Below, in pieces: positions 8,022 through 16,204 of a stretch of 64,000 bases of DNA. The stretch covers positions 868,001-932,000 of the forward strand of contig NZ_JHEL01000015.1 in NCBI RefSeq assembly GCF_000710345.2, read 5' to 3'. The position numbers were made by a program, and so were the translations under genes. Numbering within the stretch: position 1 is the stretch's first letter; every line of letters starts with the position of its first letter. This DNA is from Curtobacterium sp. S6 (GTDB lineage Bacteria > Actinomycetota > Actinomycetes > Actinomycetales > Micrococcaceae). Below the pieces are notes generated by a model, which saw only the letters and a program-made list of their open reading frames with translations, was not told where the DNA came from and did not search any database.

Positions 8022-8897
8022 ATGTCCGAGACGGCATCGAATTCATCAACCGAGGATCGGCAACCGACCAGGGATCCGGCCGAGGATAACGCCTATTTCC
8101 CGTCCCCGTATTCTTTGGGCCAATACACGGCGCCGACCACGGATTTTGATGGCCTGAGCACCGATGCAACCTATCCGGGTGATCGCTGGAAAATTCTGGT
8201 CATCGCGACCGAGGAACGATACATGCCCATGCAGAACGGGACGTTCTTCTCGACCGGCAACCACCCCGTGGAAACCTTGCTTCCGCTTCACCACATGGCG
8301 AAGGCCGGTTACGGGATCGACGTCGCGACGATCGGCGGCGGCGTCGGCAAATTTGAATGGTGGGCCTACCCCGGCGAGGATCGGGCCGTGGGCGAGACGT
8401 GGGAGGCCACGCGCGAGAAATTCAAGGCACCCCACAAGCTGGCCGACGTCATCTCCGAGGGCCTGGACGACTACGCGGCGATCTTCATCCCCGGTGGACA
8501 CGGCGCGATGAATGGCATCCCTGAAAGCCGTGACGTCCGCGATGCCCTGGATTTCTTCATCGCGGAGAACCGGCTCATCATTACCCTCTGCCACGGTCCG
8601 GCCGCGCTCCTGACGCTGAGCCTCGACCGCGAGACCAATCCCCTGGCCGGGCGGGAGATCGTGGCCTTCCCCGACACCATCGATGCCGGCGCGAACGTCG
8701 AGATCGGCTACCTGCCCGGTACCATGCCGTGGGCGCTGGGCGAGGCCCTCACCCGGGATGGATTCGTGATCACCAACTCGCAGATGAGCGGGACCACGAC
8801 GCGTGACGGAAACCTGCTGACCGGCGATAGCCCACTGGCGGCCCATCAGCTGGGCAAGGATTCGGTCGCCGCGTTGTTGCAGGAATTCGGCGAGTAA
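8022..8897 (+). CDS. hchA: Protein/nucleic-acid deglycase HchA (Hsp31, DJ-1/PfpI superfamily)
   Basis: A 291-residue Hsp31-type protein that acts on methylglyoxal or glycated products and has holdase chaperone activity in the family. The nucleophile elbow is in LIITLCHGPAALLTLS (Cys about residue 190), with the acidic partner in AAIFIPGGHGAMNGIPE and a metal-binding type segment at HPVETLLPLHHM. Length and N-terminal linker match HchA rather than the shorter PfpI proteases. Start is set by GGAGGT four bases upstream. The 269 bases before it hold no gene. It shares a terminator with the LysR gene. Confidence 0.92.
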   Translation: MSETASNSSTEDRQPTRDPAEDNAYFPSPYSLGQYTAPTTDFDGLSTDATYPGDRWKILVIATEERYMPMQNGTFFSTGNHPVETLLPLHHMAKAGYGIDVATIGGGVGKFEWWAYPGEDRAVGETWEATREKFKAPHKLADVISEGLDDYAAIFIPGGHGAMNGIPESRDVRDALDFFIAENRLIITLCHGPAALLTLSLDRETNPLAGREIVAFPDTIDAGANVEIGYLPGTMPWALGEALTRDGFVITNSQMSGTTTRDGNLLTGDSPLAAHQLGKDSVAALLQEFGE

Positions 8898-8985: not shown

Positions 8986-9933
8986 TCATGCCTCGTCGAG
9001 CAACGCGATGCCGAAACCGTCGACCACGGACCGCACCTCGTCGAGATAGCGTTGCGCCTGATCGGTGAGCGGCATCCCGGAATGGTCGATCCAGCCGATT
9101 TCGATGCGCTCGTCGACGTCGAGCGGTATCGCGATGATTTCTGGGTCAAGGTCGTCGCTGATGATGCCCGTGGAAATGGTGTATCCGTCGAGTCCGATCA
9201 TGAGATTGAAAATGGTCGCCCGGTCCGAGACCTGAATCTCCTGCGTGCTCGACAACGTGGAGAGAATCTCCTCGGCGAAATAGAACGAATTATTCGACCC
9301 TTGGTCAAAGGTCAGCCGCGGAAGGCCGGCCAGGTCGGTGAGGCATACGCGTTCCCGGGAAGCCAACGGATTTTTGCGCGAAATGAAGATATGCGGCGCC
9401 GCGTGAAAGAGGGGATGGAAGACCAGCCCCGAATCCCGCAACAGTTTATCGATGACTTTCCGGTTGAAATCGCTTCGATACAAAATTCCGAGTTCGCTGC
9501 GCAGCGTCCGGACGTCTTCGATGATGTCCCACGTTCGGGTCTCGCGGAGAGAAAACTCGTATTCGGCCGCGTCGCTGGCCTTAACCATCCGCACGAAGGC
9601 ATCCACGACGAATGAGTAGTGTTGCGCCGAAATTCCGAGGAGGCGCCGCGATGGCGGCCGGCCGAGGTAATTCTGCTCGAGGAGCTCCATCTGCTCGACG
9701 ACTTGCCGGGCGTACCCGAGGAACTCCACGCCGTCGACCGTGAGGGAAACCCCGCGGGGCGACCTGACAAGAAGCGCGCGCCCGGTCCTGGACTCGAGGT
9801 CCTTCATCGCCGCGGACAACGTTGGTTGCGAGACATACAGCAGGTCGGCGGCGGCGGTGATGGACCCTTCCGCCGCGACCTCGATGAAATAGTTCAGCTG
9901 CGACAGCGTGATGTTCTTCGAACCGGGAGACAT
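8986..9933 (-). CDS. LysR-family regulator, probable regulator of mesX-mesD
   Basis: A 315-residue LTTR. The N-terminal HTH reads LSQLNYFIEVAAEGSITAAADLLYVSQPTLSAAMKDLE (residues 9-46), followed by the substrate-binding domain. It is divergent from the DUF1852/methionine-synthase pair; such an arrangement is the classical LTTR layout, comparable to MetR beside metE. Palindromic ATAG/CTAT repeats lie directly at its start codon and in the shared intergenic region. A role in sensing homocysteine or methionine status is inferred from context only. Confidence 0.88.
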   Translation of the reverse strand: MSPGSKNITLSQLNYFIEVAAEGSITAAADLLYVSQPTLSAAMKDLESRTGRALLVRSPRGVSLTVDGVEFLGYARQVVEQMELLEQNYLGRPPSRRLLGISAQHYSFVVDAFVRMVKASDAAEYEFSLRETRTWDIIEDVRTLRSELGILYRSDFNRKVIDKLLRDSGLVFHPLFHAAPHIFISRKNPLASRERVCLTDLAGLPRLTFDQGSNNSFYFAEEILSTLSSTQEIQVSDRATIFNLMIGLDGYTISTGIISDDLDPEIIAIPLDVDERIEIGWIDHSGMPLTDQAQRYLDEVRSVVDGFGIALLDEA

Positions 9934-9958
9934 AGCCCCAGGCTATAGGAATCCATAG
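9932..9958. promoter_or_regulatory. Overlapping ATAG/CTAT inverted repeats, probable LysR binding region
   Basis: ATAGCC and GGCTAT flank three bases at 9932-9946, and CTAT at 9943-9946 pairs again with ATAG at 9955-9958, giving three half-sites in a row. The first overlaps the start codon of the LysR gene; the last lies 40 bases before the mesX start at 9998. The spacing resembles the recognition and activation sites of LysR regulators. Confidence 0.5.
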
Positions 9959-9997
9959 CTGACCCAAGTTACCCAATGACCGCCAGGTGCCTTCAGG

Positions 9998-11050
9998 ATG
10001 GATTCACAGACCTCCGCAAGGCCGAACCCGGCCGATCAGTCACCGAATTGGGCGCTTATGACAACCGAGTTCACGTTCACCATCACCACCACGCGATTCG
10101 ACGAGGATTACTCGCCGTCGGACAGTTCGCGGGCCACCACAAATTTCGCCAACCTCGCTCGGGGCGAGCGCCGTCAGCAGAATCTCCGCGAGACGTTGTC
10201 GATGATTAATCGGCGCTTCAACGAGCTGGCCCACTGGGATAATCCCGCCGGGGACCGCTACGTCGTGGATCTCGAGATCGTTTCCGGGGAATTGGAATTC
10301 ACCTCGGGCGGCAAGGAGCGCGAATTCCCGCTGCTCGAAGTCCTGGATATCCGGATCCTTGACCGCGTAACGGGTGAGCGGCACCCCGGGATCGTCGGAA
10401 ATAATTTCTCGTCGTACGTTCGAGATTTCGATTTCAGCGTGCGCCTCCCGGCGGCAAATCGCACCGCGACCGAGTTCACCGTACCCGAGGATTTCGGCGA
10501 CCTGCACGGCAAGCTGTTTCAGCACTTTCTGAATTCCCCGGCCTACCGCGAGCGCTTTCAGGCCTCCCCCGTGATCTGTATTAGCGTGTCGACGAGCAAG
10601 ACCTATCACCGCACCGGCAATCATCACCCGGTGCTCGGCGTCGAATACCGACAGGACGAGTATTCCCTGACCGACGAATACTTCGGAAAAATGGGGCTGC
10701 GGGTTCGCTACTTCATGCCTCCCGGCGCCGTCGCCCCGCTGGCTTTTTATTTCCGCGGCGATCTGCTCAACGATTACTCCAACCTGCAGCTGATCGGCAC
10801 CATCAGCACGATGGAAACCTTCCAAAGGATTTACCGCCCGGAGATCTACAACGCGAACGTGAGCGCCGGAGAAATCTACCGGCCCTCGCTGGAACAAGAC
10901 GATTTTTCCGAGACGCCGATTACGTACGATCGCGTCGAACGTAGCCAGCTCGCCACGAAACAAGGCAAGTTCACCGACGAATTCTTCGTCACCCCACACC
11001 GAGACGTTCTCGAGCGATGGGCCGCCAAATACCCCGTACCCGCTGCATGA
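9998..11050 (+). CDS. mesX: DUF1852 protein, MesX accessory factor of folate-independent methionine synthase
   Basis: A member of DUF1852 (PF08908), recognisable from FTFTITTTRFDEDYSPSDSSRATTNFANLARGE near the start and the later RYFMPPGAVAPLAFYF. Published work on core methionine synthases (Price and colleagues, 2021) showed that the MesD family needs a DUF1852 partner and oxygen but neither methyltetrahydrofolate nor cobalamin. Here it sits immediately upstream of, and overlaps by four bases, the ATG-started form of the MetE-core gene. ATG 9998 has AGGTG eight bases upstream; conserved sequence begins at a second ATG, 10058, so the true start could be either. The chemistry of the methyl donor is not known. 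Confidence 0.85.
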   Translation: MDSQTSARPNPADQSPNWALMTTEFTFTITTTRFDEDYSPSDSSRATTNFANLARGERRQQNLRETLSMINRRFNELAHWDNPAGDRYVVDLEIVSGELEFTSGGKEREFPLLEVLDIRILDRVTGERHPGIVGNNFSSYVRDFDFSVRLPAANRTATEFTVPEDFGDLHGKLFQHFLNSPAYRERFQASPVICISVSTSKTYHRTGNHHPVLGVEYRQDEYSLTDEYFGKMGLRVRYFMPPGAVAPLAFYFRGDLLNDYSNLQLIGTISTMETFQRIYRPEIYNANVSAGEIYRPSLEQDDFSETPITYDRVERSQLATKQGKFTDEFFVTPHRDVLERWAAKYPVPAA

Positions 11051-11067
11051 CCATCGGAGAAGAATTC

Positions 11068-12108
11068 TTGACTCAGACGCTTTTGCCCACGACCACCGTC
11101 GGTAGCCTGCCCAAGCCGTCCTGGCTCGCCCGTCCGGAAACCCTCTGGTCCCCCTGGGCGCTGGAGGGCGATGCCCTGGCCGAGGGCCAGCGGGATGGCC
11201 TGCGGATCGCGGTCCACGAGCAGGCGAGCCGCGGCATCGACATCGTCAGCGATGGCGAGCAGACCCGACAGCACTTCGTCACGACCTTCATCGAGCATCT
11301 CGAAGGGGTCGATTTCGACAAGCGTCAGACGGTTCGCATCCGCGACCGCTACGACGCCAGCGTGCCGACCGTGGTCGGCGAGGTCAGCCGCGATCATCCG
11401 GTCTTCGTCGACGACGCGAGGTTCCTCCGTAGGCAGACCGACCGGCCGATCAAGTGGGCGTTGCCCGGGCCGATGACCATGATCGACACCCTCTACGACG
11501 GCCACTACAAGAGCCGCGAGAAATTGGCCTGGGAATTCGCGAAGGTTCTCAACCAGGAAGCCAAGGATCTCGAGGCCGCGGGCGTGGACATCATCCAATT
11601 CGACGAGCCCGCATTCAACGTCTTTTTTGACGACATGAAGGACTGGGGAATTGCCACCCTCGAACGGGCCGCCGAGGGGCTTCGCGCCGAAACCGCCGTG
11701 CACATTTGCTACGGCTACGGGATCACGGCCAATAACGAGTGGAAAGCGACCCTCGGTTCTGAATGGCGGCAGTACGAGGAGTCCCTTCCGCTCCTACAAG
11801 CCTCGGCGATCGATATCGTCTCGCTGGAATGTCAGAATTCCCGTGTTCCGATGGAACTCATCGAGCTGATTCGCGGTAAAAAGGTCATGCTGGGTGCCAT
11901 CGACGTGGCCACCAAAAATATCGAGACGCCGGGGGAAGTCGCCGATACTCTCCGGAAGGCGCTTCGCTTTGTCGACGCGGACAAGCTCATCCCGAGCACC
12001 AACTGCGGCATGGCGCCGTTCCCGAGGGATATTGCCTTTGAAAAGCTGAGTGCGTTGAGCGCTGGTGCACGGATTGTTCGGGAGGAGCTTGAGGACGCGA
12101 GGGTCTGA
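11068..12108 (+). CDS. mesD: MesD-type core methionine synthase (MetE C-terminal domain only)
   Basis: A 346-residue stand-alone version of the catalytic half of cobalamin-independent methionine synthase; the folate-binding N-terminal half of MetE is absent. It begins TLLPTTTVGSLPKP and keeps the zinc ligands of MetE: His212 and Cys214 in VHICYGYG, Glu254 in VSLECQNSR and Cys313 in STNCGMAP. The homocysteine-binding segment IDIVSDGEQTR is present. TTG at 11068 has GGAGAAGAA just upstream; ATG at 11047, overlapping the mesX stop as ATGA, is the alternative. Neighbouring DUF1852 identifies the MesD family rather than an archaeal-type or B12-fed enzyme. Confidence 0.88.
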   Translation: MTQTLLPTTTVGSLPKPSWLARPETLWSPWALEGDALAEGQRDGLRIAVHEQASRGIDIVSDGEQTRQHFVTTFIEHLEGVDFDKRQTVRIRDRYDASVPTVVGEVSRDHPVFVDDARFLRRQTDRPIKWALPGPMTMIDTLYDGHYKSREKLAWEFAKVLNQEAKDLEAAGVDIIQFDEPAFNVFFDDMKDWGIATLERAAEGLRAETAVHICYGYGITANNEWKATLGSEWRQYEESLPLLQASAIDIVSLECQNSRVPMELIELIRGKKVMLGAIDVATKNIETPGEVADTLRKALRFVDADKLIPSTNCGMAPFPRDIAFEKLSALSAGARIVREELEDARV

Positions 12109-12381: not shown

Positions 12382-12636
12382 TCAGTAATGGTAGCGAACT
12401 TGCAAGACCACAAGATCATTCCCTATCACCACATAGACAAGTCGATGCTCGTCGGTGATGCGCCTGGACCAAGCACCTAGCGCTCCGTACTTCAGTGGTT
12501 CGGGCTTACCGATTCCCGCGAATGTCTCGCGGAGGCAAGCGTCGATGAGGGTGTTGATTCGCTTCAAGATCTTCCGGTCGGCAACTTGCCAATGTTTATA
12601 GTCTTCCCAAGCCGCCTCGTCCCAAACCAGCCGCAC
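12382..12636 (-). CDS. yoeB: YoeB-type mRNA interferase toxin
   Basis: An 84-residue Txe/YoeB toxin that cleaves mRNA in the ribosomal A site. It starts RLVWDEAAWEDYKHWQ, has RINTLIDACLRETFAGIGKPEPLKY in the centre and ends SRRITDEHRLVYVV then VLQVRYHY. The family's catalytic Glu, Arg and C-terminal His-Tyr are all present, so it looks active. GTG start follows directly on the antitoxin TGA with no gap, giving translational coupling. Confidence 0.92.
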   Translation of the reverse strand: MRLVWDEAAWEDYKHWQVADRKILKRINTLIDACLRETFAGIGKPEPLKYGALGAWSRRITDEHRLVYVVIGNDLVVLQVRYHY

Positions 12637-12897
12637 TCAAACATCCTCGTCAACTCGATCGAGTTCGTGAACCTGCGTATCCCCCGCTCGGGCGCGGTCG
12701 TAGGCGTCAAGCAACCGCCGAGCATTGGCCGGAGACCGGAATAGGTACGCTGTTTCCTTCCACGCGGCGTACTCATCGGCTGGCATAAGAACGGCGTTAC
12801 CGTTCCGGGAGACAATCTCGACTGCCTCACGGTCATCGTTGACTCGTTCTATGAGTGGGAACAGAGTCCTACGGGCTTCGCTTGCACTGATGGACAT
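12637..12897 (-). CDS. yefM: YefM/Phd-type antitoxin
   Basis: An 86-residue antitoxin. The N-terminal DNA-binding half reads MSISASEARRTLFPLIERVNDD and continues EIVSRNGNAVLMPADEYAAWKETAYL, the family signature; the C-terminal half (LLDAYDRARAGDTQVHELD) is the flexible part that would wrap the YoeB toxin. AGGAAG precedes the ATG. The operon is autoregulated in this family and a perfect palindrome lies 37 bases upstream. Confidence 0.92.
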   Translation of the reverse strand: MSISASEARRTLFPLIERVNDDREAVEIVSRNGNAVLMPADEYAAWKETAYLFRSPANARRLLDAYDRARAGDTQVHELDRVDEDV

Positions 12898-15145: not shown

Positions 15146-16204
15146 TTAGCCGTTCTCGTCCAGCACCCAGGCCTGCTTCAACGGGATGCGCGCACGAGTG
15201 GAAGCGGGAAGCTGGTCGTAGGTCTCGAACAGGCGAGAAAGCAGTTCCTCAGAGTCCCAGATCCGGAAGCTCGTGCGATCTCGCAAGAACTCCCGATCTG
15301 CCGCCCTGGTTACTCCACCCCACGCAACAAGAAGCCCCTGATCCGCGCGGTGTTGCGTCATCGCAGAATGCAGGCCCCGGACGACCTTGACGTCGACAGC
15401 AGATGGTTCACTCTTCACTTCGACGATCAGCGTCGGCGAGTCCAGTCCTAGTGGCCCTCGCCCCGCGAGTATGTCGACCCCACCGTCGGGACCTGGCGGG
15501 GAAACCTCACAATGAAAGCCGAGAGCCTCCAGAATGTCTGCTACGAGGTGGGTGAGTTTGTGACCGGCGAAATTCTCGACCAAATGTGTACGGATCCGGT
15601 CGCGGATGGCCTCAAGGGTAGGCACGGGGTCGGGATCGGTTACCTCGGCCATTTCCGTGCCGACCGTGTGGCTAGAAGTTTCCGGCTGGCTACCGGCGGG
15701 TGTGTTGTTGCCCGGGTCTGCGCCCTTCTCGTATAGGGCCAGAATTCGTTCTGCCGCGTTGTTCCTACTCGGATTGAAGACGGTCATGATGCCGTTGAGC
15801 GAGTAAAGCAGGTCGTCCTTGATGACGGACTTGGACACCGGCTCCGGGAGCCATTTCACGGGAAGTTGATGCCGCCGCCCCCGATCGGCCTCATCGGCCG
15901 CGTACCGATAATTGCCCGCGCACCGGCCGAGGTACACGTAACCGGGTCGGCGTTTGGAGGGCATGACGATGATGTCGCCACGTGCAATCGCGTTGCTAAA
16001 CGCCCAGACCTGACCAGTGGCGTTTGCTCGGCGACCTGACGAGTCATTCGGATACACCGCATCGATCATGGTTCGCACGTCCTCGCGGGACGTACACGCA
16101 GAAAGGTCTCCCACCTCCCACCCGATGGCGGCAGTGCCAGATTCAAGGTTGGCTTGTTCCTGCTCGCCGACACTGCCTGCGCGCACCACCCATGCTTTCA
16201 CCAT
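15146..16204 (-). CDS. Mrr-type restriction endonuclease with N-terminal EVE-like domain
   Basis: A 352-residue two-domain protein. The N-terminal 120 residues (KAWVVRAGSVGEQEQANLESGTAAIGW, then GQVWAFSNAIARGDIIVMPSK) resemble the PUA/EVE-like modified-base reader found on Mrr proteins. The C-terminal half has the Mrr catalytic PD-(D/E)xK core: GPDGGVDILAG (Asp near residue 243) and LIVEVKSE (Glu and Lys near 262-264), plus a helix around VVRGLHSAMTQHRADQGLLVAWGG. The layout predicts modification-dependent (type IV) restriction. No methylase is encoded nearby, which agrees with that reading. The modified base recognised cannot be read from sequence. Confidence 0.82.
   Translation of the reverse strand: MVKAWVVRAGSVGEQEQANLESGTAAIGWEVGDLSACTSREDVRTMIDAVYPNDSSGRRANATGQVWAFSNAIARGDIIVMPSKRRPGYVYLGRCAGNYRYAADEADRGRRHQLPVKWLPEPVSKSVIKDDLLYSLNGIMTVFNPSRNNAAERILALYEKGADPGNNTPAGSQPETSSHTVGTEMAEVTDPDPVPTLEAIRDRIRTHLVENFAGHKLTHLVADILEALGFHCEVSPPGPDGGVDILAGRGPLGLDSPTLIVEVKSEPSAVDVKVVRGLHSAMTQHRADQGLLVAWGGVTRAADREFLRDRTSFRIWDSEELLSRLFETYDQLPASTRARIPLKQAWVLDENG

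Follow-up and report, generated by a model that had tools for sequence, protein, structure and literature searches.

A predicted MesX-MesD methionine synthase module with a dedicated LysR switch in Curtobacterium sp. S6

The MesX-MesD enzyme system for methionine synthesis has been known since 2021. As far as the available text of its description goes, enzymes of the MesD family have been shown in other species to need MesX and O2 and to have no need for MetF, and the methyl source of this route is treated as an open question in core metabolism (PMC7857596). The closest described representatives are those of Acinetobacter baylyi and Sphingomonas koreensis, in which the same two protein families lie side by side with the same zinc and homocysteine residues as in the locus reported here (PMC7857596, available part). 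This locus occupies positions 8986-12108 of a 64,000-nucleotide stretch of Curtobacterium sp. S6 (NZ_JHEL01000015.1, 868,001-932,000), the whole of which is referred to as the window. While a putative flavin reductase is reported near the pair in the A. baylyi and S. koreensis type, the window carries instead a divergent LysR gene and an operator, and the main text of PMC7857596 makes no mention of LysR. No reductase gene was found in 46 of the 47 loci of the window type contained in the best 80 of 594 loci.

Other relatives are informative for individual parts of the system. The Shewanella MesD structure 3RPD resembles the window MesD, including the MesD-specific insertion with its Tyr, but it was crystallized without a partner and is therefore silent on MesX or on control. 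MetE has the catalytic domain and the zinc site in common with the window MesD, which nevertheless lacks the folate-binding half, is only about 24-27% identical to the MetE of congeners and stays under the cut-offs of the MetE models. In the MetR-controlled mesXD loci of Pseudomonadota, exemplified by L037, a LysR-family gene is likewise divergent from the mesX-mesD operon, but this regulator is 28% identical to that of the window over 186 residues and a flavin mononucleotide (FMN) reductase gene leads the operon. Finally, four metY-metB-mesX-mesD loci (L168, L174, L178 and L187) come from the bacterial family of the window and share its enzyme pair, yet they have neither the window-type LysR gene nor the triple operator, and carry a riboswitch and homocysteine-synthesis genes upstream. 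Judged from sequence comparison, what is new here is the actinobacterial LysR-operator module, its exchange with the S-adenosylmethionine (SAM) riboswitch and MetR/reductase forms, and a clean co-loss of metF.

We consider it quite probable that the locus is a self-contained, mobile methionine synthase module, formed by the MesX-MesD enzyme pair and a dedicated LysR switch, and that it would be the sole methionine synthase of this strain. The LysR gene, mesX and mesD are all open reading frames within 8986-12108, arranged as follows.

8986-9933, minus strand: LysR-type regulator gene, 315 residues, divergent from mesXD; PF00126 (HTH_1) 69 bits, PF03466 (LysR_substrate) 35 bits.
9932-9958, plus strand: predicted operator with three half-sites, ATAG 9932-9935, CTAT 9943-9946 and ATAG 9955-9958.
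9968-9979, plus strand: second conserved element, consensus GTTACCTGATAT, from an alignment of 12 hand-picked upstream regions and further aligned loci.
10058-11050, plus strand: mesX (DUF1852), 330 residues; PF08908 563 bits; the frame is open from 9998.
11068-12108, plus strand: mesD, core methionine synthase, 346 residues from TTG; NF006589 647 bits; an alternative ATG at 11047 overlaps the mesX stop.

The assignment of MesD is well defined. The protein scores 647 bits against NF006589 (folate-independent methionine synthase; cut-off 392), and PF01717 (Meth_synt_2, 131 bits) is the sole domain found in it, with the full MetE models remaining far under their cut-offs (107 of 930 for TIGR01371). 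Its top match among solved structures is 3RPD (595 bits, residues 5-348), and a mesX gene (PF08908) lies directly upstream. The zinc and homocysteine residues are all present, together with the Tyr of the MesD-specific insertion. Numbered from ATG 11047 (353 residues), the zinc ligands are H219, C221, E261 and C320, and these are invariant, as are S20, E71, D186 and Y224, across 144 MesD sequences (130 of them distinct). A sequence-only reading of this DNA had described a MetE-type catalytic domain devoid of the folate half, keeping all four zinc ligands and placed after a DUF1852 gene, a description borne out by the profiles and the residues; a profile placement outside MesD would have spoken against it, and the protein falls inside NF006589, beside MesX. 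The start of mesD is most likely TTG 11068, which is preceded by GGAG at 11056-11059 (shared in position by 42 of the 60 closest loci, but by only 56 of 143 overall) and reproduces exactly the residue numbers of that reading (H212, C214, E254 and C313). The start of mesX is probably ATG 10058 rather than 9998, because Met stands in that column in 120 of 144 aligned sequences (Thr in 5, a gap in 19). Among the relatives, Variovorax and Roseateles (L101:7102-8193 and L102:6960-8066) combine a normal MesX (67% identical) with a divergent MesD, 53-54% identical as opposed to 71-84% in most other loci, in which the zinc ligands are kept. The record L115, titled Bacillus subtilis, holds a proteobacterial-looking mesX-mesD-reductase locus and is probably a contamination or wrongly named.

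The search of the rest of the genome for metE and metH that had been proposed on the basis of the sequence alone has now been carried out, and it points to a single route. The genome (2.75 Mb, 12 contigs, 99.96% complete) gave no profile match to MTHFR (MetF), the MetH activation domain, PF02574 or the MetE folate domain (PF08267), in searches that each found matches in 7 to 11 of 14 control genomes. Since none of these families is matched in a genome of such completeness, MesX-MesD is predicted to be its sole methionine synthase. The lack of metF and metH matches is consistent with an activity that requires neither methyl-folate nor B12. PF01717 is represented by MesD and by one weak paralogue of 397 residues. 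This Meth_synt_2 paralogue (L003:1477-2670; contig C9 near 260953-262095) adjoins an open reading frame that resembles, by eye, an amino-acid permease.

The same pattern extends to other MesX-bearing genomes. MesX is rare in a phylum-wide sample, where it occurs in 1 of 296 genomes, the one under study; within the family, 60 of 395 genomes carry it. The presence of metF, metE and metH was tabulated for 46 of these 60 MesX-bearing genomes, the remaining 14 being left out, and for 34 congeners, with a full match defined as E below 1e-50 for MTHFR and below 1e-80 for the MetE folate domain. A full MTHFR was found in 9 of the 46 MesX-bearing genomes, a full MetE folate domain in 6 and a MetH match in 6. 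The nine genomes with a full metF are exactly those that hold MetE or MetH, and the other 37 possess none of the three in full. This table extends a previous report on 85 proteomes with MesD alone, 69% of which seem to be without MetF (PMC7857596, available part).

The regulatory part of the module is supported by the co-occurrence of the LysR gene and its operator. A divergent LysR gene accompanies mesXD in 41 of the 60 MesX-bearing family genomes, and the triple ATAG-N7-CTAT-N8-ATAG is present in exactly those 41, and in none of the other 19, of which 18 are devoid of such a LysR gene and one has it in the co-directional orientation. In this count, longer stretches of the L008 and L010 genomes took the place of those two entries. 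Similarly, among the 80 named loci, which are the best 80 of 594 and overlap the family set in some strains, 47 contain a LysR homologue more than 60% identical to that of the window (46 of them divergent); the triple is found in 45 of these 47 and in 0 of the 33 others. Of the two LysR-type loci without it, L069 has a degenerate third half-site and L087 carries its LysR gene in the co-directional orientation. The array is conserved across genera, Paenarthrobacter aurescens TC1 (L062) being one further bearer of this locus and operator, and only one extra copy (L041) was encountered across 2.02 million strand-bases. In the window the spaced triple occurs once even when 2 mismatches are allowed, the real match being exact; at that looseness, shuffled sequence is expected to give 0.30 matches, and at least one was obtained in 26 of 100 shuffles. 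In addition, the core CTATA-N6-CATAG appears once per genome, at mesX, in 9 of 9 chosen LysR-type genomes. A wider regulon of this LysR protein was considered and set aside, the exact core pattern having no second place in any of the nine; the reversed control pattern gave 12 matches in the same genomes, but its base context differs and the lack of off-target sites was left unscored.

Over 90 loci, the distances of LysR, MesX and MesD correlate (r 0.92-0.93). Conservation is highest for LysR, with a mean identity of 0.84 versus 0.74 and 0.82 for MesX and MesD (76 of the 90 LysR and 131 of the 144 MesX sequences are distinct). As is characteristic of LysR-type regulators, it has an N-terminal helix-turn-helix and a substrate domain, is divergent from its target and has a dyad site in between. 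No MetR model figures among the best 25 of the 49 families listed for the protein, and the L037 MetR-like protein with which it was compared is itself under the MetR cut-off (225 of 382). From this sequence evidence the LysR gene belongs to the mesXD module, and the control layer with three ATAG/CTAT half-sites proposed in the sequence-only reading agrees with the perfect LysR-operator co-occurrence in the 60 genomes. The second conserved element at 9968-9979 is probably part of the mesX promoter. With the first half-site extending into the LysR start codon and the array placed upstream of this second element, autorepression of LysR and activation of mesX are likely, the direction and the signal of control both being inferred. 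Among the papers listed in a search that covered mainly the open-access literature, none dealt with the biochemistry of MesX or with LysR control of mesX.

Where the divergent LysR gene is absent, other forms of control occur. Of the 19 family loci that lack it, 10 gave matches to both metY and metB within the retrieved stretch, and L191 to metY alone. In L168, L174, L178 and L187 the metY-metB genes directly precede mesX on the same strand. The metB-like genes exceed the cystathionine gamma-synthase cut-off (605-609 versus 513 bits), and the metY-like genes fall just under theirs. A SAM riboswitch exceeds the gathering score in L168, L184, L190 and L191 (4 of 17 loci) and lies just under it in L174, L178, L180, L187 and L188 (E at most 1.8e-5); L181 gave no SAM riboswitch match, and the LysR-type L162 has one above the gathering score. 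At L184:5208-5693, SAM and SAM-IV riboswitches occur on opposite strands, 260 bases apart, near mesXD, and a thiamine pyrophosphate riboswitch is present near the mesXD locus at L185:6175-6286.

A different arrangement characterizes the 33 loci without the window-type LysR gene among the best 80, which by title are mostly from Pseudomonadota. A MetR-like gene more than 60% identical to that of L037 is present in 21 of them, and a reductase gene in 27. The latter belongs to the SfnF/MsuE-type FMN reductases in 19 loci and to the PF01613 type in 8, with no locus having both and 6 having neither. With 250 bits, the L037 reductase is above the MsuE cut-off of 212.5; the L107 reductase is nearest to RutF, yet under its cut-off (215.5 of 254.75). 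FMN reductases normally serve flavin-dependent oxygenases. Seen from sequence, the replacement of one unrelated FMN reductase family by another beside mesX is the best evidence for the use of reduced flavin by MesX. In the available part of the earlier work, a putative flavin reductase is described as being often near mesX-mesD (PMC7857596), and in A. baumannii B12 is reported, in what is available of the source, to bring down expression of the DUF1852 gene (log2 -8.3) as well as that of a flavin reductase (-2.5; PMC12892962).

Several observations bear on how the locus reached this strain. MesX was found in none of the 34 congeners, none of which is among the MesX matches of the family, a sample that we infer to include them. 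A full metF is present in 21 congeners and a full metE in the same 21, and the other 13 lack both in full, 10 of these being at least 99% complete; no MetH match was obtained in any of the 34. In four of the 13, short fragments of metF or metE, differing in their end points, are still found between an aldo-keto reductase gene and a gene of the major facilitator superfamily (MFS); in a fifth, the same flanking genes enclose a clean gap (these five are L132, L133, L134, L135 and L139). In five further congeners without metE (L137, L138 and L140-L142), the purA region gave no match to the aldo-keto reductase, the MFS gene or metFE. The 13 congeners devoid of both metFE and MesX are probably methionine auxotrophs. 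As for the genome under study, its purA lies near a contig end, and the retrieved purA region and contig ends contain no metF or metE match except the PF01717 relatives. The GC content of the locus is 0.601, the window averages 0.648, and a value this low is reached by 12 of 244 sliding windows. Its MesX is 83% identical to that of Brevibacterium sandarakinum, compared with 57-75% within the family, and the locus groups with this species with a support of 0.987, which suggests transfer. The simplest reading is that horizontal transfer would have rescued methionine synthesis after the loss of metF and metE, although the former metFE site could not be located in this genome.

An AlphaFold2 model of MesX built from 69 sequences has a predicted local distance difference test score of 90.9 and a predicted template modelling score of 0.90. 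A Foldseek search of this model against PDB and BFVD gave no match at E 0.001 or better, and VIA-align gave at best Z 4.1, with a root-mean-square deviation of 4.8 over 120 residues, to acetyltransferase-like chains, which is at noise level; these structural nulls do not show that the fold is new. The profile of the 69 sequences found a single match among PDB sequences (E 0.12), and a Pfam scan detected MesX in 69 of 69, with none of the seven further families that it reported scoring better than E 0.049. Over 144 sequences, conservation reaches at least 99% at two histidines (H150 and H190) and at numerous carboxylates, arginines and tyrosines, the carboxylates including E94, E196, D123, D125, D206, E262, D291 and E294. 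A cysteine acting as methyl carrier was considered and rejected: the sole conserved Cys, C174, is kept in 142 of the 144 and is Ala in L077 and L167, although these two look like one strain present twice, which makes the C174A evidence weak.

In the mechanism that we propose, MesD would bind homocysteine as a zinc thiolate and then methylate it. The methyl group would come from MesX, an O2-consuming partner that depends on neither methyl-folate nor B12 and most likely acts through an FMNH2-dependent reaction on a common metabolite. The divergent LysR protein would act as a dedicated local switch by binding the triple ATAG/CTAT array, limiting its own expression through the half-site that covers its start codon and turning mesXD on when methionine is short. 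A more far-reaching version, in which MesX has a new fold and uses FMNH2 and O2 to turn a common metabolite into a methyl donor for MesD that is neither a folate nor a cobamide, and in which the actinobacterial LysR-run, reductase-free form moved between genera and restored methionine synthesis after the loss of metF and metE, is put forward only tentatively.

Some of our own results weigh against parts of this picture. The PF01717 paralogue of the genome is one, even though it is far under all the methionine synthase cut-offs and similar weak matches occur in many congeners. A partial MTHFR-like match, weak in score (E 1e-15 to 1e-6), turned up in 6 of the 37 genomes lacking a full metF, and the co-loss table ignores kinship among the genomes. 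Five LysR-type family loci also have metB/metY nearby, and the control types are accordingly not fully exclusive. Lastly, a reductase gene accompanies only 1 of the 47 LysR-type loci, counted on flanks of mostly 6 kilobases, and none is present in the window locus; reduced flavin would therefore have to come from elsewhere. For L004-L033, the absence of a reductase gene refers to about 4 kilobases per locus. The missing partner gene makes the window type less typical of FMNH2-dependent two-component oxygenases, but does not speak against such a mechanism for MesX. The suggestion that this locus is a good place to find the methyl donor gains weak support, a flavin reductase gene being close by in 1 of the 47 loci of this type; other conserved neighbors were not sought systematically.

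It is possible, if rather unlikely, that MesX is a metal-dependent, non-flavin oxygenase whose invariant histidines and carboxylates hold iron, the nearby reductases keeping the iron or a partner reduced. The near-complete conservation of these residues fits such an enzyme, and so does the fact that LysR-type loci do without a reductase gene, but the reductases next to mesX, in either family, are FMN reductases, one passing the MsuE model and the other nearest to RutF although under its cut-off. Flavin-dependent folate methyltransferases of the ThyX/TrmFO type exist, and MesX might likewise employ flavin in handing MesD a one-carbon unit taken from methylene-folate, bypassing MetF. This would account at once for the flavin reductases and for the loss of metF, and yet it is improbable: it leaves the O2 need unexplained, the MesX family is the only strong Pfam match in these proteins, and Price et al., in the available part of their article, argue against methylene-folate from the O2 need (PMC7857596).

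The LysR gene could in principle be a passive neighbor, with the half-sites belonging to something else; indeed, 18 of the 60 family loci have mesXD without such a gene. Nevertheless, the occurrence of the operator in all 41 genomes with the divergent LysR gene and in 0 of the 19 others, together with the way in which LysR distances track those of MesX and MesD, renders this highly improbable. Even slighter is the chance that the MesD-like protein of the window serves a role other than methionine synthesis. PF01717 relatives of other or unassigned role do exist, one of them in this very genome, but the NF006589 score above cut-off, the invariant functional residues, and the metY-metB operons and SAM riboswitches of relatives all argue for methionine synthesis, and the S. 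koreensis pair rescues E. coli, as stated in the available part of PMC7857596. The predicted module of MesX, MesD and LysR remains our preferred reading.

The surroundings of the locus contain further recognizable genes. Adjoining the LysR gene, a glyoxalase III HchA is encoded at 8022-8897 on the plus strand (NF003168, 398.5 bits, cut-off 365). Just downstream of mesD and converging with it, a YoeB toxin (PF06769, 125 bits) and a Phd/YefM antitoxin (PF02604, 62 bits) occupy 12382-12897 on the minus strand. A gene at 15146-16204, likewise on the minus strand, encodes a protein in which an Mrr-type restriction endonuclease domain was recognized (PF04471, 79 bits).

If true, the proposed route would represent a source of the methionine methyl group apart from methyl-folate and methyl-cobamides. 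As 37 of the 46 tested MesX-bearing genomes of the family hold no full metE, metH or metF, the pair would be their only methionine synthase. Strains that rely on MesD appear, in the available part of PMC13059711, to escape nitrous oxide poisoning of MetH. Strains with MesX-MesD as the only synthase would offer natural settings for tracing the methyl donor, and a reporter built on the operator could reveal which signal the cell couples to the MesX-MesD route.

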